The translations under genes were made by a program, and so were the position numbers. The notes beneath the pieces were generated by a model, which saw nothing but the letters and a program-made list of their open reading frames with translations, was not told the DNA's origin and made no database searches. From Porticoccaceae bacterium (GTDB lineage: Bacteria; Pseudomonadota; Gammaproteobacteria; Pseudomonadales; Porticoccaceae), in assembly GCA_012960115.1 (NCBI GenBank), contig DUBX01000054.1, forward strand, positions 1 to 46,295: DNA of 46,295 nucleotides. Reading direction: 5' to 3'. Of the stretch, positions 33,977 through 46,295 are shown in pieces (position 1 is the stretch's first letter; the number at the start of each line of letters is the position of its first letter).

Positions 33977-35068
33977 ATGAAGAATCGCCTCTTTGCTCAT
34001 TTTTCATCAACCGCTATCTTGGTCATTGCTGGATTTACTTTAAGCACCGGTATCATGGCGGCTGACCAAGAAACGGGGCGCACAGACCTCTCTATTGGGC
34101 AAGCAGCCAATTTAATGCAGTTGCCCTTGGCCTGCGCCGAGACAGAATACCCCAACAAGTTAAGTCAAACCTTGCGTAGTGAACAGGATCTTGCATCACC
34201 GAGGGGCTTACACCCGGCTTTTTATGGATGCTTTGACTGGCATTCAGCGGTGCATGGTCATTGGTCAATGGTGCGTCTTTTAAAAGAATTTCCAGATGTG
34301 GTGGGTAACGCTCAAGCCAGAGCTATCTTACAGCGCCACATAACCCCGGAAAATGTCGCTAAAGATATTGAATACCTTAGAGCCAATACCGCATGGGAAC
34401 GCCCTTATGGTTGGGCTTGGTTGTTAAAGTTAACGCATGAATTGCAGGGTTGGAATGATCCCATGGCCGCCCCATTGACTGCAGCCCTAGAGCCCTTGGC
34501 GGAAGAATTGTCACAGATGTACATTGCCCATTTACCAAAGTTAGCTTACCCCATCAGAGTTGGCGAGCACGCTAATACTGCATTTGGACTCACCTTTGCG
34601 TGGGATTACGCGCTACAGTTTGACGATATTCCATTGCAAATGGCGATAAAGCAGCGGGCACATGATTTCTATTTACAGGATGAAAATTGTCCCATTGGCT
34701 GGGAGCCTAGTGGCTATGACTTTTTATCTCCCTGTCTAGAGGAGGTGGACTTGATGCGGCGGGTACTGCCTAAAGAAAAGTTTATGGTGTGGCTAAATGA
34801 GTTTTTGCCTGCATTAATGTCACCAAGTTTTGATTTGCCTGTAGGACAGGTTTTTGATCGAACCGATGGTAAATTAGTGCACTTAGATGGGCTTAACTTT
34901 AGTCGGGCTTGGGTGTTTTATGCGTTGGCCGAACAGTACCCCGAACTTGGGCATCTTAATAATCTCGCTGATCGTCATGTTGCGTATTCGTACCCTAATT
35001 TAGTGGGTGACAGTTACGAGGGTGGGCATTGGCTGGGTTCGTTTGCCATTAATGCTCTATTGCCCTAA
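33977..35068 (+). CDS. DUF2891 family exported protein
   Basis: Protein of 363 aa with a signal peptide (about residues 1-29, ending IMAADQ). The DUF2891 hallmark LHPAFYGCFDWHSAVHGHW lies at about residues 73-91, and helical repeats with RPYGWAWLLKL, EPSGYDFLSPCLEE and GLNFSRAW follow. The structure expected is an alpha/alpha toroid like glycoside hydrolases, but no activity is established. It follows the serine hydrolase gene by 7 nt. Function unknown. Confidence 0.82.
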   Translation: MKNRLFAHFSSTAILVIAGFTLSTGIMAADQETGRTDLSIGQAANLMQLPLACAETEYPNKLSQTLRSEQDLASPRGLHPAFYGCFDWHSAVHGHWSMVRLLKEFPDVVGNAQARAILQRHITPENVAKDIEYLRANTAWERPYGWAWLLKLTHELQGWNDPMAAPLTAALEPLAEELSQMYIAHLPKLAYPIRVGEHANTAFGLTFAWDYALQFDDIPLQMAIKQRAHDFYLQDENCPIGWEPSGYDFLSPCLEEVDLMRRVLPKEKFMVWLNEFLPALMSPSFDLPVGQVFDRTDGKLVHLDGLNFSRAWVFYALAEQYPELGHLNNLADRHVAYSYPNLVGDSYEGGHWLGSFAINALLP

Positions 35069-35111
35069 ATTGTCTCTAATACACCTTGTTTGAAGTTTAT
35101 AAGAGATTGTT

Positions 35112-36362
35112 ATGAATTTTGTTCCTTACGCAGTGCCCTTTTTCTTACTACTGATCCTTGTCGAATTGGCTTGGGGTTGGCTAAAAGGGAACAATACCTA
35201 TCGTATTAATGACAGCTTAAACAGTCTGAGTCTTGGGCTATTGAGCACCGTAACTAAGTTTGTGTTTTTGAATATTGGATTACTTGTGTTTTCTAATATT
35301 GGGCAAAATCACGCCATCTGGTCCTTTAACATGATGTCTACCAGCCACTGGTTATTGGGGATTTTACTCTATGATTTTCTCTATTACTGGTACCACCGAA
35401 TCAGTCACGAGCGCCAACTCTTTTGGGGCTCTCACGTGGTCCACCATCAGAGTGAGGACTATAACTTAAGTACGGCACTGCGCCAGACGAGTACTAGCTT
35501 TTTAACCACCTGGGTGTTTTTCATTCCCTGTTTCTTTTTGGGTATGCCGATCTATATGTATGTCAGCATTGCGACCGCTCATCTGGTTTACCAGTTTTGG
35601 GTACATACTCAGCACATTGGTAAATTGGGTTTTTTAGAGTGGTTTATCGTATCGCCGTCTAATCATCGTGTACACCATGCGCAAAATCCTGACTACATCG
35701 ATAAAAATTATGGCGGTTTGTTCATCGTGTGGGACCGGCTATTTGGTACCTTCCAAGAAGAAGATGAACAGCAAAAACCGATCTATGGCATTCGAGTACC
35801 CCTATCAAGTTGGAATCCGTTGTGGGCCAACCTGCATATATTTGTCAATATGGCACGGGATGCTTGGCGGACTAATGCTTGGAAGGACAAACTTAGAGTG
35901 CTCTGGTCTAAAACTGGCTGGCGCCCCGCCGACGTAGCCCAGCGTTATCCGGCGAACAAATCTGATTTAAATCATTTTACGAAATATGACCCCAAGCTCA
36001 GCACAGGGGCTAAGTATGCGATGGTAGGGCAATATCTATTGTTGACCTTTTTCCATCTTTGGAGCGCGGGGCAGGTGACAAAGCTTCCTTATGAGTTGTT
36101 ATGGGTGGTGGTGATAGCACAGCTTCTCACGGTAATGGTTATTGGTGCCGTGCTAGATGGCAAGCCTTTTGTCAGGGGGTTGGAGTTATCCCGATTGGTT
36201 GTGATGACAGGAATCCTTTACAGTACCTTCACAGCAAATTTAATTAGTATGGAGTGGCTGTATTACGCTATTGTCTATCTTGTTATTAGCGCTAGTTTAA
36301 TGTGGGTTTGTATTAAAAAAGAGTCGAGTAGTGAGGCCGTTGCTAGCTCTGATCCAGCCTAA
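35112..36362 (+). CDS. Sterol desaturase / fatty acid hydroxylase family membrane protein
   Basis: Membrane protein of 416 aa with the di-iron histidine boxes HRISH, HVVHH and HRVHH in the first half (about residues 95-200), embedded between hydrophobic helices, and extra helices in the last 100 residues. The family hydroxylates or desaturates lipids, sterols or alkylglycerol-type ethers; the C-terminal membrane extension resembles alkylglycerol monooxygenase-type proteins. It lies 43 nt after the DUF2891 gene. Its 3' end precedes the next gene's likely GTG by 31 nt. Substrate unknown. Confidence 0.84.
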   Translation: MNFVPYAVPFFLLLILVELAWGWLKGNNTYRINDSLNSLSLGLLSTVTKFVFLNIGLLVFSNIGQNHAIWSFNMMSTSHWLLGILLYDFLYYWYHRISHERQLFWGSHVVHHQSEDYNLSTALRQTSTSFLTTWVFFIPCFFLGMPIYMYVSIATAHLVYQFWVHTQHIGKLGFLEWFIVSPSNHRVHHAQNPDYIDKNYGGLFIVWDRLFGTFQEEDEQQKPIYGIRVPLSSWNPLWANLHIFVNMARDAWRTNAWKDKLRVLWSKTGWRPADVAQRYPANKSDLNHFTKYDPKLSTGAKYAMVGQYLLLTFFHLWSAGQVTKLPYELLWVVVIAQLLTVMVIGAVLDGKPFVRGLELSRLVVMTGILYSTFTANLISMEWLYYAIVYLVISASLMWVCIKKESSSEAVASSDPA

Positions 36363-36393
36363 AAATATTAACGAATCATCAAGGACTAAACCT

Positions 36394-38196
36394 GTGAAAA
36401 AAAGTCTGAAGGGCTCAGCCCAGTCTGTTGTGTCGCCACTTGCCGCGGCGGTAATTAGTGTTGATGTTGAACTAGGTCAGGCGGTGGCAGAAAATCAGAT
36501 TATCGCGACCGTAGAATCAATGAAAATGCAGACCGCTCTTGTTGCGCCTGTCTCTGGGGTTGTTTTGGAGATCGGGGTGACGGTGGGCCAGACTGTCCAG
36601 ACAGGGCATGTGGTTTGCAAGATTACCGAAGTCGATGCGCCACCCGAAGAAGACAAAACGCCTATTGATCAGCAGCCACAATCTGATGGCCCCCTTGAAA
36701 AACTTAATCAGCAGCTACATTACAGCCTCGATAGCGGACGCCAAACGGCAGTTAATAAACGTCATGCCAAAGGTTATCGAACGGCTCGGGAGAACCTTGC
36801 CCAGCTATGTGATACCGACTCTTTTGTTGAATATGGCCAACTTGCTGTGGCGGCCCAACGCGATAGAATCAGTGGTGAGGATTTAAAAGTTCAAACCGCG
36901 GCCGATGGTGTGATCACAGGTTTAGCCACTATCAATAGCGAGCAATTTGGCAGTGCGGCCACACAGGTTGCTGTTATCGTTAATGATTACACCGTGTTGG
37001 CGGGCACACAGGGTTATTTCCACCACCGCAAAATTGACCGGATGTTGAAACAAGTTCAAGAGTCTTTTCTGCCAGTGGTTATGTATACCGAGGGCGGCGG
37101 CGGCCGGCCTGGAGATACCGACGTCAAAACTCAAATCGCCGGATTAGACGTACCCACCTTTGCTAGCTGGGCTGGCCTTAGTGGGCAGGTGCCGATGATC
37201 GCAGTTAACAATGGGTATTGTTTTGCCGGTAATGCAGCCTTATTTGGTTGCGCTGACATCCGCATTGCAACCAAGACATCATGGATCGGTATGGCTGGGC
37301 CCGCCATGATCGAAGGTGGAGGTCTGGGCAGTTTTGCACCGACAGACATAGGCCCCATTGGTGTGCAGGCAGAAAACGGCGTAGTAGATTTGGTGGCCGA
37401 TGACGAGGCCCATGCGACGCAATTAACTCAGCAGTGTTTGGGTTATTTTCAGGGAACCCAAGACGATTGGGAATGTGCTGATCAAACTGAGTTGCGCGAT
37501 ATGATGCCTGCAGACAGGCGCTATGTGTACGATGTACGGTTGATGGTTAACCACCTTGTGGATACACACAGTTTTCTCGAGCTTACTCCAGCCTATGGCT
37601 GCGCGGTGGTGACTGGGTTTGCTCGTATTGAGGGCAGGGCGATCGGTTTAATTGCTAATGACTGCCAAATGCTAGGGGGTGCGGTAGATGCAGAAGCTGC
37701 TGAGAAAACCGCAAGATTTATAACTCTGTGTGATAATTTTGATATCCCTATTCTTTCATTGTGCGATAGCCCAGGCTTTATGGTCGGGCCTGCAAGTGAA
37801 GAACAGGGCGCGGTGCGTCGCATGGCTCAGTTATTTATCGCTGGTGCTAAATTGAATACATCTCTGGTGACGATTTTCTTACGCAAAGGTTATGGTCTAG
37901 GGGCCATGGCCATGGCTGGTGGCAGTTTTCATAAGCCGATCTACAGTGCAGCTTGGCCTAGCGGTGAGTTCGGTGGTATGGGTCTAGAGGGTGCTGTTCG
38001 TTTAGGCTTTAAAAAAGAGCTTGCGGCAATGCCAGATGACTCTCAAAGAGAGGCCCTATTTACAGAGCTCGTTGAGAAAATGTATGAACAAGGCAAAGCC
38101 ACTGAGGCAGCTGCGCACTTGGAGATTGACGCGGTAATTGATCCTGCCGACACTCGGGATCTTATTATCAAGGCGTTTAATAGCCGAACTAGCTGA
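36394..38196 (+). CDS. Biotinyl domain fused to an acyl-CoA carboxylase carboxyltransferase
   Basis: Protein of 600 aa from the chosen start. An N-terminal biotinyl domain (about 8-78) carries the biotinylation motif VESMKMQ (Lys44). A charged, Pro/Gln-rich linker (about 80-105) leads to a carboxyltransferase with N and C halves (about 110-600): TEGGGGRPGDTD, NNGYCFAGNAALFGCAD, CDSPGFMVGP and LRKGYGLGAMAMAGG. AAGGA at 36381-36385 is 8 nt before GTG 36394; an upstream in-frame ATG at 36331 lies inside the previous gene with no such site. No biotin carboxylase gene is in the window, so it must use one in trans or act as a transcarboxylase/decarboxylase. Confidence 0.83.
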   Translation: MKKSLKGSAQSVVSPLAAAVISVDVELGQAVAENQIIATVESMKMQTALVAPVSGVVLEIGVTVGQTVQTGHVVCKITEVDAPPEEDKTPIDQQPQSDGPLEKLNQQLHYSLDSGRQTAVNKRHAKGYRTARENLAQLCDTDSFVEYGQLAVAAQRDRISGEDLKVQTAADGVITGLATINSEQFGSAATQVAVIVNDYTVLAGTQGYFHHRKIDRMLKQVQESFLPVVMYTEGGGGRPGDTDVKTQIAGLDVPTFASWAGLSGQVPMIAVNNGYCFAGNAALFGCADIRIATKTSWIGMAGPAMIEGGGLGSFAPTDIGPIGVQAENGVVDLVADDEAHATQLTQQCLGYFQGTQDDWECADQTELRDMMPADRRYVYDVRLMVNHLVDTHSFLELTPAYGCAVVTGFARIEGRAIGLIANDCQMLGGAVDAEAAEKTARFITLCDNFDIPILSLCDSPGFMVGPASEEQGAVRRMAQLFIAGAKLNTSLVTIFLRKGYGLGAMAMAGGSFHKPIYSAAWPSGEFGGMGLEGAVRLGFKKELAAMPDDSQREALFTELVEKMYEQGKATEAAAHLEIDAVIDPADTRDLIIKAFNSRTS

Positions 38197-38226
38197 AATG
38201 TAGGGCCAATAAACTGAGGTAATGCA

Positions 38227-39441
38227 GTGAACGTAACTAATGCACAGACCATGGACTTTAAAAACCCCTTTGATAGTTGGAAATCCATAGCGATCAGTTT
38301 ATACATGACGCTAATTGGTTATGGTGTGTTGGTGGGTATTCCGGTGATCAGTACCGCCTGGGTGACTTTGTTGGGGTTCACTGAGATTGAGGTTGGGCGT
38401 GTTGCTGGTGCTGATTTGGGCGGGTTATCACTGGGCGCCGTCGCAACCGCAGTGTTTATCGCTAAGGTCAATCGGCGCTGGTTAGTTGTCATAGGCCTAT
38501 CTATTGCGGTGATTGCTAACCTGCTGTGCATCACCATTGTCGATTATAATCAGGTGTTGTGGCTTCGTTTACTGGCAGGGGTGGGTAGTGGCATATACAC
38601 CGCAGTGGCGGTGGCCTCTCTAGGCGCTAGCTCTAAACCGGCACGAGCCTATAACGCCATGTTATTTGCCTTTGCATTTTCTCAAGCATTAGAAATGCAT
38701 TTTTTACCGTTGCTCCCTATGGCGGGCGTGTATACTGTATTTATTGTCTGTTTCTTGCTGACAATACCCTTTATACACTGGATTCCGGCTTATGCTGAAC
38801 CTGACGATGTTCAGTCAGAGCACCTTTCACAAGACCCCTCGGCTGACAGCTTGTCGCACCAGAACATTCCTGCTTACGTCCCATGGCTATGTTTATTTGC
38901 AATAGTCGTTGCCTATATCAATATAGGCGCCTACTGGACCTATATTGAGCTTGCCGCGCTGGCGGACAAGGCTAACCCAGAGTGGATAGGCCAAGTCTTA
39001 ACCTGGTCATCATTGTGTAGCATAGTAGGCTGTTTATTTGCCACGGTATTAAGTAATCGGTATGGCTTGTTGAGACCATTGCTGGTGACACTGTTAACTG
39101 TTTCGGTGATTGTAGGTATGTTAGCCAATGGCATTACTGACACGACTTTCTTTGTCAGTGTTTTTGCTTTTAATTTTTTATGGATTTTTAACGATGTTTA
39201 TCAGATGTCGATCATTGCCAATGTCGATAAATCTGGGCGCTTTGCGGCATTGATGCCAGCTGCGCAGGGTCTTGGTCAAATTATCGGGCCTAATATGGCG
39301 GCCTCAATACTCGGCTTAAATTTAGGTTACTCAGGCGTATTTGTGATGTGCGCCGCCGCCGCCTTCATCGCCATGTTGATTTATGGCTTTATGTACCTTC
39401 GACTTAAAAGAACCATACCTGCGTTGGCCTATGCAACGTAA
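38227..39441 (+). CDS. MFS transporter
   Basis: Twelve-helix major facilitator protein of 404 aa with a central cytoplasmic loop at about residues 195-215 (rich in Asp, Ser, Gln). The first-half pattern ADLGGLSLGAVATAVFIAKVNRR resembles the loop 2-3 signature. The start is GTG 38227 with GAGG 7 nt upstream; the ATG at 38251 is an alternative. It follows the carboxyltransferase gene by 30 nt and may be co-transcribed. The substrate is unknown. Confidence 0.82.
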   Translation: MNVTNAQTMDFKNPFDSWKSIAISLYMTLIGYGVLVGIPVISTAWVTLLGFTEIEVGRVAGADLGGLSLGAVATAVFIAKVNRRWLVVIGLSIAVIANLLCITIVDYNQVLWLRLLAGVGSGIYTAVAVASLGASSKPARAYNAMLFAFAFSQALEMHFLPLLPMAGVYTVFIVCFLLTIPFIHWIPAYAEPDDVQSEHLSQDPSADSLSHQNIPAYVPWLCLFAIVVAYINIGAYWTYIELAALADKANPEWIGQVLTWSSLCSIVGCLFATVLSNRYGLLRPLLVTLLTVSVIVGMLANGITDTTFFVSVFAFNFLWIFNDVYQMSIIANVDKSGRFAALMPAAQGLGQIIGPNMAASILGLNLGYSGVFVMCAAAAFIAMLIYGFMYLRLKRTIPALAYAT

Positions 39442-39944
39442 GTTCCATGCTTTTTGGCGTCAACGCTTAAGTCGCAAAGTGTGACGCCTTCATCCTATGT
39501 AGCCTAGTTATTTATGATTTTTCAAAGGCTTCGAGGTGCTTAGACAGCATGCAGTTGAGGGAAAAACAGTAAGGCAAGTTGATATTTTTGAGTCGCGTTT
39601 AGGTTGTATGGTTATTAAGGCGCCGGGCTATGGAATTAGAAGACATAACAACTGGTGTAGCAGGTAATTACGTAGTATTTATTTGCTTTATTTTAGTTAA
39701 AGCGGCTTTGACAATGAACTACCGGAGTGTCAATATCATGAAACACAAAGGTCAGAGTGGTTCCTAATGCTTGGCCTAGACTATGTTGAAGAAGCGCCTT
39801 AGGGGGGCACTAATGTTAACTACATTGCGCAATTTGACAAATAGAACCATCGGCCACAATTAGTTTCTTTTTTAAATGGGTATATGAACCGACCACATAA
39901 CGCAGTTGCTAAACGATCATGGTACTTGATTACGAGGTGTTAAA
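39442..39944. other. 503-bp intergenic region, A+T-rich
   Basis: No convincing gene. An inverted repeat just after the MFS stop (GGCGTCA at 39456-39462, TGACGCC at 39482-39488, 19-nt loop) could end transcription but lacks a following T-run. A heat-shock promoter for the downstream hspQ was looked for and not found. Only fragments of ORFs under 20 codons are open; this may be decayed sequence. Confidence 0.4.
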
Positions 39945-40274
39945 TTGGGGACAGTAACCAATATAAATAGAGCCAAGTTATCTATTGGAGCGCTTATCCA
40001 TCACAAATTATTTGGCTATCGAGGGGTAATTGTAGATGTTGATCAGAAGTTTCAATCTACCGAAGAGTGGTACGAATTTGTCGCTAAATCAAGACCACCT
40101 AAAAACAAACCTTGGTATCATGTTTTAGTTCATGACAATGAACAAATTACCTATGTAGCAGAACAAAATCTAGAGCCCGACAATTGCGAAGACCCTATCA
40201 AACACTCCATGATAGATCACTTCTTTAACAGTTTTGAGCATGGGCATTATGTTCTCAAGGATAAGGCTAACTAA
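39945..40274 (+). CDS. hspQ: Heat shock protein HspQ / YccV-like hemimethylated-DNA-binding domain protein
   Basis: Protein of 109 aa, close to the usual 105. Visible family blocks: SIGALIHHKLFGYRGVIVDVD at the N terminus, RPPKNKPWYHVLVHD in the middle, and TYVAEQNLEPD with FFNSFEHGHYV at the end. In E. coli HspQ binds hemimethylated oriC DNA and modulates Lon. The start is TTG 39945, with GAGG at 39934-39937 (7-nt spacing); no ATG fits the conserved start. It is first of three short genes in the same direction. Base composition is about one third G+C in the line counted, lower than the left part of the window. Confidence 0.88.
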   Translation: MGTVTNINRAKLSIGALIHHKLFGYRGVIVDVDQKFQSTEEWYEFVAKSRPPKNKPWYHVLVHDNEQITYVAEQNLEPDNCEDPIKHSMIDHFFNSFEHGHYVLKDKAN

Positions 40275-40287
40275 CAAAGGAAGCATG

Positions 40288-40560
40288 ATGATGAGTAAAC
40301 CTGCACGAGCATCTGATACACCTTATCCAGTAGAAGTTGAATCGGGTAAAACATACTTTTGGTGTGCCTGTGGCCAAAGCAAAATACAACCATTTTGTGA
40401 TGGTTCTCATAAAGATACTAACTTCACACCAGTAAAATATGAAGCAACAGAATCACAAAAGGTTTTTTTCTGCGGTTGCAAACTTACAGAATCTCAACCC
40501 ATGTGTGATGGTACCCATAAAGAAACAGAGCGAGTTCATCAATCATTGCTTTTCGATTAA
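40288..40560 (+). CDS. Twin CDGSH iron-sulfur domain protein
   Basis: Protein of 90 aa with two CDGSH zinc-finger-like [2Fe-2S] motifs: CACGQSKIQPFCDGSH and CGCKLTESQPMCDGTH, each matching C-x-C-x(2)-S/T-x(3)-P-x-C-D-G-x-H. Twin-CDGSH proteins (MitoNEET relatives) bind two [2Fe-2S] clusters with 3Cys:1His ligation; the role in bacteria is thought to be redox or cluster transfer. Three consecutive ATGs (40285, 40288, 40291) follow AAAGGAAG; spacing favours the second or third. It lies 13 nt after hspQ. Confidence 0.9.
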   Translation: MMSKPARASDTPYPVEVESGKTYFWCACGQSKIQPFCDGSHKDTNFTPVKYEATESQKVFFCGCKLTESQPMCDGTHKETERVHQSLLFD

Positions 40561-40589
40561 ACGCAATACCTCGATAAAGAGAGGAAATA

Positions 40590-40820
40590 ATGGAAACACC
40601 GTTTCATACTATAGCTTCGTTATTTGATCAATTGGGACTAGAGAGTACAGATGCAGCAATTGAGGATTTTATCAATAGAAATGGACCGTTACCAAGTAGT
40701 GTGGAGTTATACAAAGCAGATTTCTGGACAGGTTCACAGGCGTCGTTTTTCAAACAAATGATAGATGAAGATGCTGATTGGGCTGAAATAGTTGATCAAC
40801 TAGATGCCATGCTGCGTTGA
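40590..40820 (+). CDS. DUF2789 family protein
   Basis: Acidic helical protein of 76 aa. The order PFHTIASLFDQLGL, then FINRNGPLP, FWTGSQASFFKQMIDEDADW and a final short helix is the DUF2789 pattern, a small gammaproteobacterial family of unknown function. A GAGAGGAAA ribosome site precedes the ATG. It is the third gene of a short unit with hspQ and the CDGSH gene, 29 nt after the latter. Confidence 0.85.
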   Translation: METPFHTIASLFDQLGLESTDAAIEDFINRNGPLPSSVELYKADFWTGSQASFFKQMIDEDADWAEIVDQLDAMLR

Positions 40821-40954
40821 TGAGACATCATGATCAGAGCAGCTCAACCTTAGCCATTGAGCCTATGCTTAATTATCGCTCAGGAAAGAATTCAAGACGG
40901 CATCTCCTGCATGTATTTCATAATTGATGCTATATTATCCCTAACTATCGGAGC

Positions 40955-41272
40955 TTAATTTCCATCGATAATATCATCGACCCAACACATAGCAGCAGCA
41001 ACATTGGGGAATCCGATCGTACTCGTCAGTAGAATGAGTGTGTGATAAATCGCTTCCTGATCTACACCCACATCTATCGCCCTTTTAGCATGACTGTGCA
41101 CAGCGCCTTCAGAACGTATGGCGGCAGCGCCAGCAAGCTGAATTAACTGTGCTGTTTTTTCATCGATAGGACCGAATGCTTTAACAGCTGTACCCAAGGC
41201 TTCAACAGTTTCTATAAAATTCGGATGACTATTCTTAATTTTCAAATACGTACTGGAAGGATTTGTTGTCAT
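40955..41272 (-). CDS. Carboxymuconolactone decarboxylase / AhpD-like protein without the CxxC pair
   Basis: Small all-helical protein of 105 aa. The core EKTAQLIQLAGAAAIRSEGAVHSHAKRAIDVGV, followed by EAIYHTLILLTSTIGFPNVAAAM, matches the CMD/AhpD fold. AhpD peroxidase-type members have CxxC plus His in this helix; here the cysteines are absent and only the His remains, so thiol-peroxidase activity is unlikely. A strong AGGAG precedes the ATG. It is convergent with the DUF2789 gene and divergent from the bioB region. Function unknown. Confidence 0.78.
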   Translation of the reverse strand: MTTNPSSTYLKIKNSHPNFIETVEALGTAVKAFGPIDEKTAQLIQLAGAAAIRSEGAVHSHAKRAIDVGVDQEAIYHTLILLTSTIGFPNVAAAMCWVDDIIDGN

Positions 41273-41587
41273 GCTTATCTCCTTTTAAAATTAATGATCT
41301 GATACTTACCCTAGATCACCGTTGATTAAATGAAATTTTATGCACTGGTTATTATCAGTTGGGAAAAAGGCAAGCTATTACGCATTTCACGCAATTTTAG
41401 AAGCACAATTTTCGAATCTGGTTGTCCAGGTAAATCTGGAAAATCTTCGCGCAGTTTGGTGATCAGCGATGGCTTATGCAAACGAAAAAACGTGTTGACC
41501 TCCTTTACCGAAGCAATAGTCGATACCAACGCCTGCGCCGGATTTTGGTTCGGGGCTTCTTTATACTAGCTTATTCTTTTAAAGAAA
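41273..41587. other. Non-coding or decayed region upstream of the bioB control region
   Basis: Two overlapping short ORFs are open here, plus strand 41330-41569 (79 aa) and minus strand 41338-41529 (63 aa, open upstream to a TAG near 41565). Neither has a clear ribosome site or a recognisable domain. The minus-strand frame reads more like protein (DFPDLPGQPDSKIVLLKLRE) and may be a gene remnant. I make no functional call. Confidence 0.3.
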
Positions 41588-41618
41588 GCTGACGGTATTT
41601 AATTAGGGCGAGCGCCAC

Positions 41619-41651
41619 ATGTTAACCATATATTTAAAATTAGGTTGACAT
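41619..41651 (+). promoter_or_regulatory. BirA operator upstream of bioB
   Basis: ATGTTAACC (41619-41627), a 15-nt spacer, then GGTTGACAT (41643-41651). The arms are complementary at 8 of 9 positions, and each matches the known gammaproteobacterial BirA site (TTGTAAACC-N14-16-GGTTTACAA) at 7 of 9. The right arm overlaps the -35 box, as expected for repression by biotinyl-AMP-bound BirA. Functional assignment is inference from the consensus. Confidence 0.75.
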
Positions 41652-41672
41652 CGTTCTGTGAGGCTCTATTAT
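41645..41672 (+). promoter_or_regulatory. bioB promoter (-35 TTGACA, -10 TATTAT)
   Basis: A perfect sigma-70 -35 TTGACA (41645-41650), a 16-nt spacer and -10 TATTAT (41667-41672, 5 of 6) lie 36 nt upstream of the bioB ATG. The -35 is embedded in the right arm of the BirA operator. Confidence 0.7.
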
Positions 41673-41707
41673 TTGCGGCCTATCCATTGATTTATCGGAG
41701 TTTGGCC

Positions 41708-42694
41708 ATGTCATCTCAAGAAGGCTCTGTGGTTCGCCACGATTGGACCCGTGAACATGTCCTCGCCCTGTTTAATCAGCCTTTTAATGATTTGCTATTT
41801 GACGCGCAAGTGACTCATCGCAGGTACTTTGATCCGAATCAGGTGCAACTCAGTACTCTGTTGTCCATTAAGACCGGCGCTTGCCCAGAGGACTGTAAAT
41901 ACTGTCCTCAGAGTGCGCGCTATGACACTGGTTTGGAAAAAGAGAAATTGTTGAAAGTTGAGCAGGTGATAGAGGCGGCTAAGATCGCTAAAGCCAGTGG
42001 CTCCAGTCGTTTTTGTATGGGCGCCGCTTGGCGTTCGCCTCATGACCGAGATATCCCCGCAGTTGCCGAGATGATTCGCGAAGTAAAAGCGCTGGGTCTG
42101 GAGACTTGCATGACTCTGGGTATGCTGAGTGAGGGTCAGTCCGAGAAGTTGGCGGACGCCGGCTTGGACTATTACAACCACAATCTGGATACCTCCAAAG
42201 AATTTTACGGTGAGGTGATCACCACCCGAACCTATCAAGATCGTCTCAATACGTTAGCCAATGTGCGTAACTCGGGAATGAAGGTCTGTGCTGGCGGTAT
42301 TGTCGGCATGGGCGAAGAGCAGAAAGATCGTGCGGGCTTGTTGATGGAATTAGCCAATTTGCCGGTGCACCCTGAATCTGTACCGATTAATATGCTGGTG
42401 AGGGTGGCAGGAACACCAATGGCCAATGAAGAGGATTTAGACCCCTTTGAATTTATTCGCACCATTGCCGTTGCTCGACTGATGATGCCTAAATCCTATG
42501 TGCGGCTGTCTGCGGGCCGCGAGGAGATGAACGAACAGATGCAGGCAATGGCATTTATGGCTGGCGCCAACTCGATTTTCTACTGTGAAAAATTGCTCAC
42601 TACAGCCAATCCGAAAGCAAACACTGATATGCAGTTGCTTGGGCGACTGGGTATTAAACCTGAAGAGTATCAGGCCGTGAAGGATAGCCAGTAA
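41708..42694 (+). CDS. bioB: Biotin synthase
   Basis: Radical SAM enzyme of 328 aa converting dethiobiotin to biotin. The SAM [4Fe-4S] motif CxxxCxxC is C59-PED-C63-KY-C66. The auxiliary-cluster cysteines appear in [20 protein letters not shown] and KVCAGGIVG, and the arginine in VRLSAGR. The ATG at 41708 is chosen because GGAG (41697-41700) is 7 nt upstream and conserved sequence starts here; the longer frame from 41645 would begin inside the -35 box. It has its own BirA-type control region and converges on bioD. Part of it is duplicated at the window's right edge. Confidence 0.95.
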
Positions 42695-42764
42695 CAGGAA
42701 GACGATGCTCTTTAGTTATTAGTGTAGACGAATCTAGCTAACACTCTTTGCTGAGGGCCTTTGT

Positions 42765-42893
42765 ATGGCTATCGAGGTTGCCACTAGATCGAGGGAGATT
42801 GCCACTGTTACCGACACTCCGGAAACTAAGAAGGTTTTGATGCCTATAAAAAAGGGGCTGAAAGAGAAGTTCTATTCGCTTATAAAAAGATAA
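42765..42893 (+). CDS. Possible small protein of 42 aa downstream of bioB
   Basis: A plus-strand ORF from ATG 42765 to TAA 42893 has AGGG at 42754-42757, 7 nt before the start. Its product is Thr/Glu-rich then basic (ending IKKGLKEKFYSLIKR). It occupies most of the gap between bioB and the convergent bioD. No family is recognised; it may be a remnant of a gene that followed bioB before the cassette arrived, or chance. Confidence 0.3.
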   Translation: MAIEVATRSREIATVTDTPETKKVLMPIKKGLKEKFYSLIKR

Positions 42894-42899
42894 ATGTTG

Positions 42900-43532
42900 T
42901 CAAAAATGTTTTAAAAAAAGTTCTTTTAATATTGTTGAGTTAATCTGCTCAATCATGGGTATTTCGGCCAATACAGTTGTATCACCATATTTTTCAATGG
43001 CCTTGCGGTTAATTGTGTTAATGTCTCCATTCAAAATGACACCTAACACATCAACACCACTTCTTTTCAATTGCTCAAGAGAAAGCAATGTATGGTTTAT
43101 CGTACCCAGAACATTTGAACTTACTAATAGCACGGGTATTTTCAGTTTGACCATCAGGTCAAGGATCATCTGATCCTCATTAATCGGAACCATAATCCCA
43201 CCAGCGCCCTCAATAATGAGATATTCTTCATAAGAAATTTCAGGAAGCAGAAAATCATCAAGCTTGATAGATATATTTTCAGCAGCCGCAGCGGCGTGGG
43301 GCGATAAAGGAAGCGGTAAACGATAAGTTTCAGCAATAAAATGTGACCTATCGAGTTCAGATGTTTTTTGAATCCATTGACTATCGGTGGGTTCTTCCAA
43401 TCCACACTGAATGGGCTTCCAATACTTCGCAGCCAAACCCGATACCAGAATGGATGAAATTACTGTCTTGCCCACATCGGTTCCCGTTCCAGTGACAAAA
43501 ATCCTTTTGGGAAGGTTAGTTTGCATCGGCAT
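42900..43532 (-). CDS. bioD: Dethiobiotin synthetase
   Basis: ATP-dependent carboxylase of 210 aa making dethiobiotin from diaminopelargonic acid. The P-loop is FVTGTGTDVGKT near the N terminus; KPIQCGLEE holds the second-motif Lys, and IIEGAGGIMVPI is the conserved EGAGG block. It overlaps the end of bioF by 17 nt. Two starts are possible, ATG 43532 and ATG 43526; AAGAG upstream gives better spacing (about 7) for the second. Last gene of the bioA-F-D operon. The gene is A+T-rich (37-38% G+C in lines counted). Confidence 0.92.
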   Translation of the reverse strand: MPMQTNLPKRIFVTGTGTDVGKTVISSILVSGLAAKYWKPIQCGLEEPTDSQWIQKTSELDRSHFIAETYRLPLPLSPHAAAAAENISIKLDDFLLPEISYEEYLIIEGAGGIMVPINEDQMILDLMVKLKIPVLLVSSNVLGTINHTLLSLEQLKRSGVDVLGVILNGDINTINRKAIEKYGDTTVLAEIPMIEQINSTILKELFLKHF

Positions 43533-44688
43533 ACTCTTTAAATAATTTTAGTAGATGATCTATCTGCTCCCAGGAATGTTCACTGGATAGAGCTATTCTA
43601 ATTCTTGCTGTTCCCTTGGGAACCGTAGGAGGTCGGATTGCTGTGGCTAATACATTATTTTGTTCGAGCTTGGTTGCTAGTTTTAAGGTTTTAACATTAT
43701 CTCCGATGATAACGGGGATAATTTGGCTCGTGGATTGACCCGTCTTATATCCAAGTTTTTTTAATGAGCTTCTTAGAAAAGTAGCTTTCTCATGTAGTAG
43801 CTTACGCTCAGATTGCATTTTCGGAACTATATCAAGGGCAGCATCAATTGCCCCTAGGACGGATGGAGGCAGAGCCGTGCTAAAAATCAGTCCGCTACAG
43901 TAGTTAATCAAATAATCTCTTGTCGATTGATCACAGGCAATATACGAGCCAAATGAACCGCAAGCCTTGCCAAAAGTTCCTACTACAATTTCAGCCATCT
44001 CCCCATTTGCCAGGCCCATCCCATTGGGCCCTGTTACACCTGTAGCGTGTGCTTCATCCACAATTAATATGGCATTAAACTGCTGGGATAACTCCCGCAG
44101 AGCCTCCAGATCACAGCAATCACCATCCATACTGAATATTGTTTCTGTAATAATCAGTATCCTTGAATACCCCTTATCCTGGTTATCCTTAAGCAATTGT
44201 TTTAAGTGAGTTGTGTCGTTGTGACGAAAGATAAGTTTATCGCAGCGAGCTAGAGTACATCCCTGAACGATGCTGTTATGGTTTAACTCATCAGACAATA
44301 TCAGGGTATTTCTATCCGCCAGGGCAGGGATCAACGTGATATTGGTTTGAAAACCGGAATTAAGTATCAAGGCAGTTTCAGATGATTTAAGTGCAGCCAG
44401 TTTTTCTTCAATTTGTTCTAATCCATCAACATTACCACATATCAAACGAGAGGCAGTTGCACCATTCCCATAACGCTCAATCCAGTCGATTGAGCGTTGT
44501 TTAACATACGGATGTTTGGACAATCCAAGATAATCATTGGAGCTGAAATTAACAAGCTTGTGACCATTCATAATCACTTCCACAGCCGAGATTGGTTTTA
44601 CAGACTTTAGCGTTCGAAATCGATCTTCAGATTTGCGCTTTTCCAGCATGTTCTGGATAAATTGGGTCTTATTTTCTTTTGACAACAT
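43516..44688 (-). CDS. bioF: 8-amino-7-oxononanoate synthase
   Basis: PLP enzyme of 390 aa condensing pimeloyl thioester with alanine. Visible blocks: NFSSNDYLGLSKHP, YGNGATASRLICG, DELNHNSIVQG, VDEAHATGVTGPNGMG and the cofactor lysine in VVGTFGKACGSFGSY. Its ATG shares one base with the bioA stop (TAATG), with GGAG just upstream, and it overlaps bioD, so the three genes are translationally coupled. bioC and bioH-type genes for pimeloyl synthesis are not in the window. Confidence 0.93.
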   Translation of the reverse strand: MLSKENKTQFIQNMLEKRKSEDRFRTLKSVKPISAVEVIMNGHKLVNFSSNDYLGLSKHPYVKQRSIDWIERYGNGATASRLICGNVDGLEQIEEKLAALKSSETALILNSGFQTNITLIPALADRNTLILSDELNHNSIVQGCTLARCDKLIFRHNDTTHLKQLLKDNQDKGYSRILIITETIFSMDGDCCDLEALRELSQQFNAILIVDEAHATGVTGPNGMGLANGEMAEIVVGTFGKACGSFGSYIACDQSTRDYLINYCSGLIFSTALPPSVLGAIDAALDIVPKMQSERKLLHEKATFLRSSLKKLGYKTGQSTSQIIPVIIGDNVKTLKLATKLEQNNVLATAIRPPTVPKGTARIRIALSSEHSWEQIDHLLKLFKEYADAN

Positions 44689-45977
44689 TATACTCCAGCA
44701 ATAACTTCAACTACCGATCTTGTCAAATAATCTAGATCTTCATCGTTTATGATAAATGATGGCATGAGGTAAATTAGTTTGCCAAAAGGGCGTACCCAGA
44801 TGCCTTTGTTCACAAATTGTTGCTGAATTGTTTCCATATTTACAGCTTGCTTCATTTCAACTACACCTATAGCACCCAAAACACGTACATCGGCAACTGC
44901 ATTGAATTCATTACAGGGAGATAGTCCTGTGGTAAGTTGCTTTTCTAACCGCTGAATGTTTATTTGCCACTCTGATGATAATAGAAGCTTAATACTTGCA
45001 TTGGATACTGCACAGGCAAGAGGATTGGCCATAAAGGTTGGTCCATGCATAAAAACACCAGGTTTGCCTGCTGAGATAACTGTACTGACTTCGGATGTAG
45101 TAAGCGTTGCGGCAAGTGTCATATAGCCACCTGTCAGTGCCTTGCCAAGACACATGATATCGGGTGTTATATCAGCATGTTCACAGGCAAACAGTTTTCC
45201 GGTTCGGGCAAATCCTGTGGCAATTTCATCAGCAATCAGCAAGACTTCATATTGATCACATAGTTCACGACAACGTTTCAGGTAATGTGGCGAATAAAAG
45301 CGCATCCCTCCTGCTCCCTGAACCACAGGCTCGAGGATCATTGCACCTATTTCATGGTGACGTTGTTTGAGCTTTTCTGATAATTCATCTATCGATGATT
45401 CATCCCATTCATCATAAAAACCGCAACTCGGTGCCTCAACAAACAAATGTTGTTGAATGATATTTTTAAAACTGCTGTGCATACCTGTAACAGGATCACA
45501 TAAGGCCATGGAGCCAATGGTGTCGCCGTGATAACCAGATTTAATTGTGATTAGCATCGACTTTTCAGGTTTGCCTTTAGCGAGCCAATATTGATAAGTC
45601 ATTTTTACTGCAACATCGACTGCTACTGAACCAGAATCACTAAAAAACACCTTATCAAGTCCAGCGGGGGTCAACTCAATCAAAGATTTCGCCAAATCTG
45701 CGGCTGGCTGATGAGCCAGACCTCCAAACATGATATGGGACATTTTATCAAGCTGTTCCCGGATGGCTTCATTCAGCACGGGATGGTTATAACCATGTAT
45801 CGCAGCCCACCAGGATGACATTCCATCAATTAATTCCTGACCATCTACAAGTCTGATTCTGACTCCATTTGCAGAAATAACCGGATAAACCTTTAGGGGT
45901 TTGTCCATTGATGTGTAGGGGTGCCAGATATGTTCTTTATCAAATCCTGGCCAGTCAGCTGTTTTCACATCATTCAT
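44688..45977 (-). CDS. bioA: Adenosylmethionine-8-amino-7-oxononanoate aminotransferase
   Basis: Class III PLP aminotransferase of 429 aa from ATG 45977 (a TTG at 45983 is also open). BioA-specific features: HIWHPYTSM near the N terminus, [50 protein letters not shown] and cofactor lysine in [10 protein letters not shown]. It uses SAM as amino donor to make diaminopelargonic acid. There is no strong ribosome site; a truncated bioB leader ORF ends 20 nt upstream, so translation may be coupled to it. First gene of bioA-F-D. Confidence 0.93.
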
Positions 45978-45997
45978 GTTCAATACTTTGTACCTGT

Positions 45998-46090
45998 TTA
46001 ATGTGGATTAAGTTCAGGCTGATTAAACAGGGCGAGGACATGTTCACGGGTCCAATCGTGGCGAACCACAGAGCCTTCTTGAGATGACAT
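45998..46090 (-). pseudogene. Truncated bioB start (30-codon leader ORF) ahead of bioA
   Basis: Reading leftward, ATG at 46090 opens the first 25 codons of bioB without change, then runs on through five unrelated codons (E-L-N-P-H) to TAA at 46000-45998. The native bioB ribosome site (GGAG, 7-nt spacing) is preserved, so this 30-residue peptide is probably translated. It ends 20 nt before the bioA ATG. Confidence 0.85.
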
Positions 46091-46210
46091 GGCCAAACTC
46101 CGATAAATCAATGGATAGGCCGCATATAATAGAGCCTCACAGAACGCTGTCAACCTAATTTTAAATATATGGTTAACATGTGACGCTCGCCCTAATTAAA
46201 TACCGTCAGC
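46016..46210 (-). repeat. 195-bp inverted repeat, right copy
   Basis: Reverse-complement partner of 41588-41782, identical except for three positions. On the left it stops after bioB codon 25; on the right it stops at 46210 and is followed by an 8-nt junction and a direct piece of bioB. See the left copy for content. Confidence 0.93.
46126..46179 (-). promoter_or_regulatory. Second BirA operator and promoter, facing bioA
   Basis: Minus-strand copy of the bioB control region: operator arms at 46179-46171 and 46155-46147 (the outermost base of the latter is changed, T to G), -35 TTGACA at 46153-46148 and -10 TATTAT at 46131-46126. Both hexamers and the left arm are unchanged relative to the bioB copy. 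It would place bioA-F-D under the same biotin control as bioB. Confidence 0.7.
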
Positions 46211-46218
46211 CGTCGATT

Positions 46219-46295
46219 ATGGCCAATAAAGAGGATTTAGACCCCTTTGAATTTATTCGCACCATTGCCGTTGCTCGACTGATGATGCCTAAATC
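46219..46295 (+). pseudogene. Internal bioB fragment at window edge (runs off the end)
   Basis: 46219-46295 repeats bioB 42419-42495 in the same orientation with one difference (42428 G, here A, changing Glu to Lys). It corresponds to BioB residues 238-262, in frame from an ATG that is an internal Met in the intact gene. Upstream sequence is unrelated, so this is a 5'-truncated copy; whether its 3' part is complete cannot be seen. Confidence 0.85.

Follow-up and report, generated by a model that had tools for sequence, protein, structure and literature searches.

The window analysed here, a stretch of 46,295 nucleotides, comprises bases 1-46295 of contig C54 (DUBX01000054.1; 51281 bases in total) from the draft genome of a Porticoccaceae bacterium (GCA_012960115.1, below G000; 2432134 bases in 54 contigs, 94% complete). 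Towards its right end lie an intact bioB gene on the forward strand and, facing it on the reverse strand, an operon of bioA, bioF and bioD, together with a nearly perfect inverted repeat. The two arms of this repeat bear the control region and the beginning of bioB, once in front of bioB itself (arm 1) and once in front of bioA (arm 2; Table 1). A 19-base N gap (46296-46314) starts where the window ends.

The repeat, the only inverted one reported within 36000-46295 (seed 14, minimum length 25), is 195 nt long and 98% complementary, and its arms are 4233 nt apart. It contains 120 nt of control region and 75 nt corresponding to bioB codons 1-25. The arms are equal at 192 of the 195 positions, so the repeat is not due to chance; the three differences (41615/46183, 41651/46147 and 41673/46125) all fall in the noncoding part, and the operator, -35 and -10 are untouched. 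An earlier note on this DNA had described the inverted copy with its three differences, and had stated that codon 25 is followed at once by unrelated bioA leader sequence; both descriptions were confirmed. Arm 2 is oriented towards bioA and ends 38 nt from its start codon (ATG at 45977, with an in-frame TTG at 45983 as alternative), and its reading frame continues through five further codons to a stop. The resulting leader has 30 codons and leaves 20 nt between its end and the bioA ATG. Congener bioB loci were fetched from 29 of the 32 congener genomes with bioB, and 16 of these 29 promoters were aligned. At position 41651, G was found in 12 of the 16 and A in four, with no T; the copy has G and bioB itself has T. 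Positions 41673 and 41615 were variable among the same congeners. A candidate leader attenuator, consisting of a 10-nt inverted repeat with one half in the BioB codons and the other in the bioA leader (CCTGTTTAAT / ATTAAACAGG), was rejected after folding (z = -0.94, -0.02 and -1.32), and no leader hairpin is claimed.

Both arms carry an intact BirA-type operator (TGTTAACC-N15-GGTTGACA), identical in the two, which overlaps the -35 box of a sigma-70-like promoter, TTGACA-16-TATTAT, agreeing with the consensus at 11 of 12 positions. In an excerpt of PMC545781 the BirA consensus is given as TTGTAAACC-(N14/15)-GGTTTACAA, with a table of like sites, e.g., aTGTcAACC-(N14)-GGTTgACAg. The arm operators match this consensus at 14 of its 16 informative positions, and within the window they alone reached the threshold set for a BirA box (at least 13 of 16). 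The exact motif occurred only at the two arms in the whole assembly (reversed-pattern control, 0), and one further operator-like place, with two mismatches, was found on contig C31. At the same threshold a box was present in 22 of the 29 congener bioB loci versus 0 of 19 congener bioA loci. When 29 bioA loci from congeners and others were scanned with up to three mismatches, a single congener place was detected (L028, three mismatches); outside the genus, L006 (downstream of bioA) and L020 (inside bioA) had two mismatches and L026 had three. Only the two arm promoters reached 11/12 in a promoter scan of 41400-46295, and the remaining minus-strand sites, all 9/12, lay inside bioA or bioF. The BirA protein of G000 has an N-terminal HTH_11 domain (Pfam, 56.7 bits, cut-off 25) in addition to the BPL domains.

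The two transcription units differ in their affinities. The bioB gene is of congener type, with 90-93% amino-acid identity to the closest congeners and 82.2% nucleotide identity to G011. Congener BioF proteins did not exceed 38% identity to that of the window where the match was near full length, one partial match giving 41%, and the six congener stretches examined have, after bioB, a bioF and a bioD with 29-38% identity to those of the window. In the class (369 genomes), the other BioF matches with E up to 1e-100 reached 45% at most. The nearest bioAFD among the matches listed was that of a Desulfatibacillum metagenome-assembled genome, L180 (bioA 61%, bioF 57%, bioD 53%), which has the order bioA-bioF-bioD. 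Since the BioF of the window is closer to that of L180, with the same gene order, than to congener BioF, the operon is considered foreign to the genus. G+C content at third codon positions was 34-37% in bioA, bioF and bioD, 54% in bioB and 46-50% in two neighbouring genes. The loci compared came from an alignment query that matched at least 589 stretches, of which 576 were confirmed and 80 kept; records titled Desulfobacterales, Desulfatibacillum, Desulfatitalea, Desulfobacteraceae and Deltaproteobacteria are those that we take to be Desulfobacterota. The order bioA-bioF-bioD was also found in L181, L182, L183 and L185, and bioF only in L186. A single-query search with BioF gave no confirmed relative in genome contigs or viral contigs, the exact arm/bioA junction was found in no viral contig searched, and all 701 plasmid records with a match were below 60% identity.

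Two of the Desulfobacterota-type bioAFD loci have BirA-like boxes: L182 (1676) has one of 14/16 about 1 kb before bioA, and L185 (2573) one of 13/16 about 0.15 kb before bioA. No box was detected in the other seven of the nine Desulfobacterota-type or near loci scanned. From these two boxes, the ancestors of the bioAFD cassette may have been under BirA control too.

Beyond arm 2 a further piece of bioB was found, which the earlier note had not mentioned. It begins 8 nt from the arm, in direct orientation, and copies 42419-42495 with one difference; past the N gap, 39 nt match bioB 42504-42542 with two differences and are followed by unrelated sequence. The direct bioB pieces are 3800 nt apart. 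Of the three differences in the scrap, one is silent, another (E241K) falls at a variable site (E in 15, Q in 14 and L in one), and the third, M274I, replaces a Met found in all 30 bioB sequences compared, one of which is that of the window. Because this broken mid-bioB piece adjoins arm 2, the arm is, as judged from its sequence, the inverted front of a second bioB copy, partial and scrambled. Such an origin would fit either template switching from bioB or Campbell-type integration of a circle through bioB.

The whole region lies in inserted DNA. The relative G003 shares 92.4% nucleotide identity with the window over 34793-39440, where homology ends at the stop codon of an MFS transporter gene, and continues with about 110 nt, tRNA-Leu(CAG), a small open reading frame (ORF) of 110 amino acids and manB, with no insertion. 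Apparently the same MFS/tRNA junction is present in G015, distributed over two contigs, each of which ends in the tRNA. C54 of G000 runs for 11840 nt beyond the MFS stop without homology, and the tRNA-Leu gene and an intact manB are found on contig C15 (tRNA at C15:387-473), whose homology to G003 starts at position 386; C15 would thus follow C54, though perhaps not directly. As proof of this join, a single TonB-receptor gene broken across the two contigs was considered and rejected, the C15 piece having no match to the G019 relative of the receptor at the C54 end. In G020 the MFS gene and the tRNA are about 26 kb apart. In G007 an integrase-like ORF (L156:4662-6172) starts 88 nt past tRNA-Leu(CAG), with a DUF6538 score over the cut-off (35.5 bits) and a Phage_integrase score below it (24.1 bits, cut-off 27.1), and on the MFS side there is a second copy of 16 nt from the tRNA end (L153:2658-2673). 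Judging from the arrangements in G003, G015, G020 and G007, the MFS/tRNA-Leu interval takes up DNA in this genus and is likely an integration hotspot. The earlier note had pointed to related genomes as a source of the ancestral order; G003 supplied it for the MFS gene and the tRNA, adjacent and without insertion, but bioB itself proved to be inside the inserted DNA.

Pieces of other genes were also detected in the inserted DNA. A manB piece of 231 nt, 92% identical to C15:849-1079, is contained in an ORF (L086:10104-10511; C54 49103-49510) whose remainder resembles, by eye, the tail of another enzyme. A truncated Csf3/Cas5-like piece of 59 codons, of type IV CRISPR-Cas (PADLOC 3.7e-8; no Pfam family), was found at L086:7582-7758 (C54 46581-46757). 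At the left end of the island, positions 39706-39770 and 39527-39660 resemble contig C43 of G000 (83%) and contig C32 of G024 (74%), and are regarded as debris. The manB, csf3 and integrase-like scraps suggest mobile DNA and repeated illegitimate joining.

Table 1. Features of the biotin island and its left flank (window coordinates).
Feature	Position	Strand	Basis or remark
MFS transporter, left chromosomal flank of island	38227-39441	+	Pfam MFS_1
Insertion, part within window	39442-46295	.	Continues to C54 end, 51281; DNA absent from G003
YccV/HspQ-like gene	39945-40274		Pfam
CDGSH gene	40288-40560		Pfam
DUF2789 gene	40590-40820		Pfam
CMD family gene	40955-41272	-	Pfam
Arm 1, bioB control region and codons 1-25	41588-41782	+	Inverted-repeat search
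BirA-type operator of bioB, TGTTAACC-N15-GGTTGACA	41620-41650	+	Overlaps -35; motif scan and published consensus
Sigma-70-like promoter of bioB, TTGACA-16-TATTAT	41645-41672	+	11/12 consensus
bioB, intact, 328 aa, congener type	41708-42694	+	Pfam Radical_SAM and BATS
36 nt in bioB-bioD spacer	42771-42806	+	94% like 3' end of G007 integrase-like ORF (L093; integrase-like by eye only)
bioD (dethiobiotin synthase)	42900-43532	-	Pfam AAA_26; 53% to Desulfatibacillum L180
bioF	43516-44688	-	Pfam Aminotran_1_2; 57% to Desulfatibacillum L180
bioA	44688-45977	-	Pfam Aminotran_3; 61% to Desulfatibacillum L180; 56-62% to congener bioA
Leader ORF, 30 codons (BioB 1-25 and five)	45998-46090	-	Stop 20 nt before bioA ATG
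Arm 2, inverted copy of bioB control region and codons 1-25	46016-46210	-	Inverted-repeat search
Sigma-70-like promoter, arm 2 (TATTAT at 46131-46126)	46126-46153	-	11/12; reads towards bioA
BirA-type operator, arm 2	46148-46178	-	Identical to bioB operator
Direct bioB piece (copy of 42419-42495)	46219-46295	+	Continues past N gap to equivalent of 42542

The distribution of biotin genes among the relatives was then compared with their phylogeny. In an rpoB tree of 15 genomes (30 searched and 16 matched, the incomplete G066 being left out), G000 was placed beside G024 (95.0% nucleotide identity) in a clade with G007, G068, G030, G020 and G006 (support 1.000). No bioB was found in these six other members, four of them giving no match and G020 and G006 one weak match (E ~8e-4), and bioF gave no match in any of the six. 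A protein search for bioA in five of the six yielded only aminotransferases of 30-33% identity; G068, outside that search, had no DNA match to the bio region. The six assemblies are 74-97% complete, so that single absences would be weak evidence, the six together not. Over the genus as a whole, a bioB match with E < 1e-100 was obtained in 33 of 50 genomes searched, G000 included, and was absent in 17. As the nearest relatives show no bioB, bioF or bioA, and as bioB lies inside an insertion absent from a relative with 92% identity, bioB was probably not resident in this lineage. A bioB tree had been considered as proof of transfer and was dropped, the support of the G000 node being 0.176.

Only the BioF, BioA, BioD and BioB steps were seen in G000. 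The genus-type bioF was not found in its 94%-complete assembly, and BioC exceeded the family cut-off in seven of 12 genomes searched, G000 not being among them (best score in the same assembly, 56.2 bits versus 184.95). In seven congeners (L097-L103) the open frames containing BioC have 449-573 codons against 244 positions in the model, which may point to a fusion. It is possible that the strain still depends on a pimelate-type precursor from outside.

Taken together, these data make it probable that the inverted partial copy of bioB represents a promoter capture by which bioAFD came under predicted BirA control, as part of a composite island in a lineage that had lost biotin synthesis. Capture of a BirA-type promoter is supported by the intact operator and promoter in both arms, the restriction of the exact operator to these two places in the assembly, the box-free bioA loci of congeners, the helix-turn-helix domain of BirA and the non-genus type of bioF and bioD. 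After the loss, the late pathway (BioF, BioA, BioD and BioB) would have been regained as an island between the MFS gene and tRNA-Leu(CAG), composed of two parts, a congener-type bioB along with its own BirA operator and an operon bioA-bioF-bioD such as occurs in Desulfobacterota. A second partial bioB would have arisen at the bioA end, its first 195 bp being inverted and fused to the bioA leader and the remainder becoming the broken scrap, and the inverted piece would supply a sigma-70 promoter together with the BirA operator that overlaps it. Under biotin shortage BirA would be off both operators, allowing convergent transcription of bioB and bioAFD; with biotin in ample supply, biotinoyl-AMP-BirA would cover both -35 boxes. 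The earlier note had already proposed the capture of a BirA-type promoter by bioAFD, and this part is supported; its description of the promoter as resident is less likely, given the position of bioB in the insertion and the relatives in which no bioB was found. Its claim that the whole pathway was put under one signal is too strong for the four steps seen. In its widest form, i.e., a lost vitamin pathway rebuilt from two lineages in one island, in which a failed bioB copy turned round became the BirA promoter of a foreign bioAFD and created a two-operator regulon where the immediate ancestors had none, the interpretation is put forward tentatively, its chance being somewhat short of even.

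Several observations weigh against this explanation. The promoter scan as a whole was not above chance, with seven sites against a mean of 10.4 (standard deviation 3.3) in shuffles. BioA reaches 57-62% in Desulfobacterota, which does not exceed the 62-63% seen in other families of the host order, and the gene order is bioF-bioD-bioA in L197 and bioF-bioD, with no bioA in 2.4 kb upstream, in L179; as the likeness of BioA is not decisive and the gene order varies, no donor of the cassette is named. For the placement of C15 the only ground is synteny with G003. Neither in the window nor in L086 was the tRNA end found repeated, and no integrase was seen in C54 between 39.4 and 51.3 kb, as inspected by eye and by Pfam analysis of selected ORFs, the right end not being assembled. 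A genus-type bioF and a BioC over the cut-off were not found, which makes the supply of the precursor uncertain. The long branch of bioB (0.19) and its low support do not demonstrate a recent transfer, and the gene may instead have been retained vertically and relocated. Arm 2 stands beside debris (the bioB scrap, the manB piece and the csf3 piece) and may be debris too. Finally, the N gap and the draft state of the assembly leave room for misassembly, and transcription and repression are predictions made from sequence alone.

Among the alternatives, the one that survives best, and which is nevertheless unlikely, takes bioB and its BirA promoter to be genuinely resident, having been kept here, lost separately in the relatives and then moved, so that only bioAFD came in and captured the promoter. 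The nucleotide identity of bioB to G019 (80.7%) is close to that of rpoB (78.6%), as expected from vertical descent, and the long bioB branch is also in keeping with residence. For this alternative to hold, bioB must have been lost independently four times or more on the rpoB tree (G024; G007; G068 and G030; G020 and G006) and must also have been relocated, the gene being in DNA absent from G003 and apparently from G015, and bioB is not located before bioF, unlike in the six congener stretches. More doubtful still is that arm 2 is inert debris of a scrambled bioB duplication, with bioAFD read from another promoter or not at all. The adjoining scrap altered at the invariant Met codon, the more distant broken pieces on the contig and the chance-level frequency of promoter-like sites would agree with it; the fully intact operator, -35 and -10, the orientation of the arm towards bioA at so short a distance from its ATG, and the restriction of the other minus-strand sites to 9/12 matches inside bioA or bioF speak against it. 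A chimera of assembly or of mixed strains is the least likely of the three, as the N gap starting 85 nt past the second junction, the contig being one of 54 in a draft and a divergence of about 2%, which could be strain variation, are set against two junctions in gap-free sequence, a bioB scrap that resumes beyond the gap and alters an invariant residue, and, at 41651, the majority congener base in the copy and not in bioB, as if both copies had diverged.

If promoter capture is accepted as the preferred explanation, the locus would be a natural and readable example of the way in which the appropriate host regulator may gain control of an acquired operon, with the likely donor type, the origin of the captured operator and an insertion-free relative visible together. 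It would make testable the regain of a vitamin pathway after its loss, and a broken gene copy as a source of regulation. Promoter capture and BirA regulons are already known; for a foreign operon that receives the operator of its own pathway through an inverted partial gene copy, no report was found in the literature searched (titles and the beginnings of abstracts). As in tRNA-associated genomic islands, the insertion would, judging by synteny, lie in an interval next to the 3' end of a tRNA-Leu gene, and the integrase-like ORF and tRNA-end repeat of the relative G007 are a further likeness; the difference is that no tRNA-end repeat or integrase was found for G000. In E. coli, bioA and bioBFCD diverge from a control region with one shared bidirectional BirA operator. 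The likeness is that bioA and bioB are both under BirA, as predicted here; in G000, however, there are two separate operators, 4.5 kb apart and facing each other. The same operator form before bioB and bioA, together with a BirA bearing a helix-turn-helix domain, resembles the BirA biotin regulon, and the excerpt of PMC545781 reports two operators before two separate bio loci for some delta-proteobacteria, an arrangement like the present one; the difference is that in G000 the first operator recurs in inverted form as the second, together with 25 codons of bioB. Regarding promoter capture, passages of PMC11111574 describe the citrate case in E. coli (Li and Bock), in which a silent or foreign gene is expressed through fusion to an existing promoter by illegitimate recombination, and cases arising by deletion or tandem duplication. 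In contrast to these, the copy in G000 is inverted and natural, and brings with it the operator of the matching pathway regulator.

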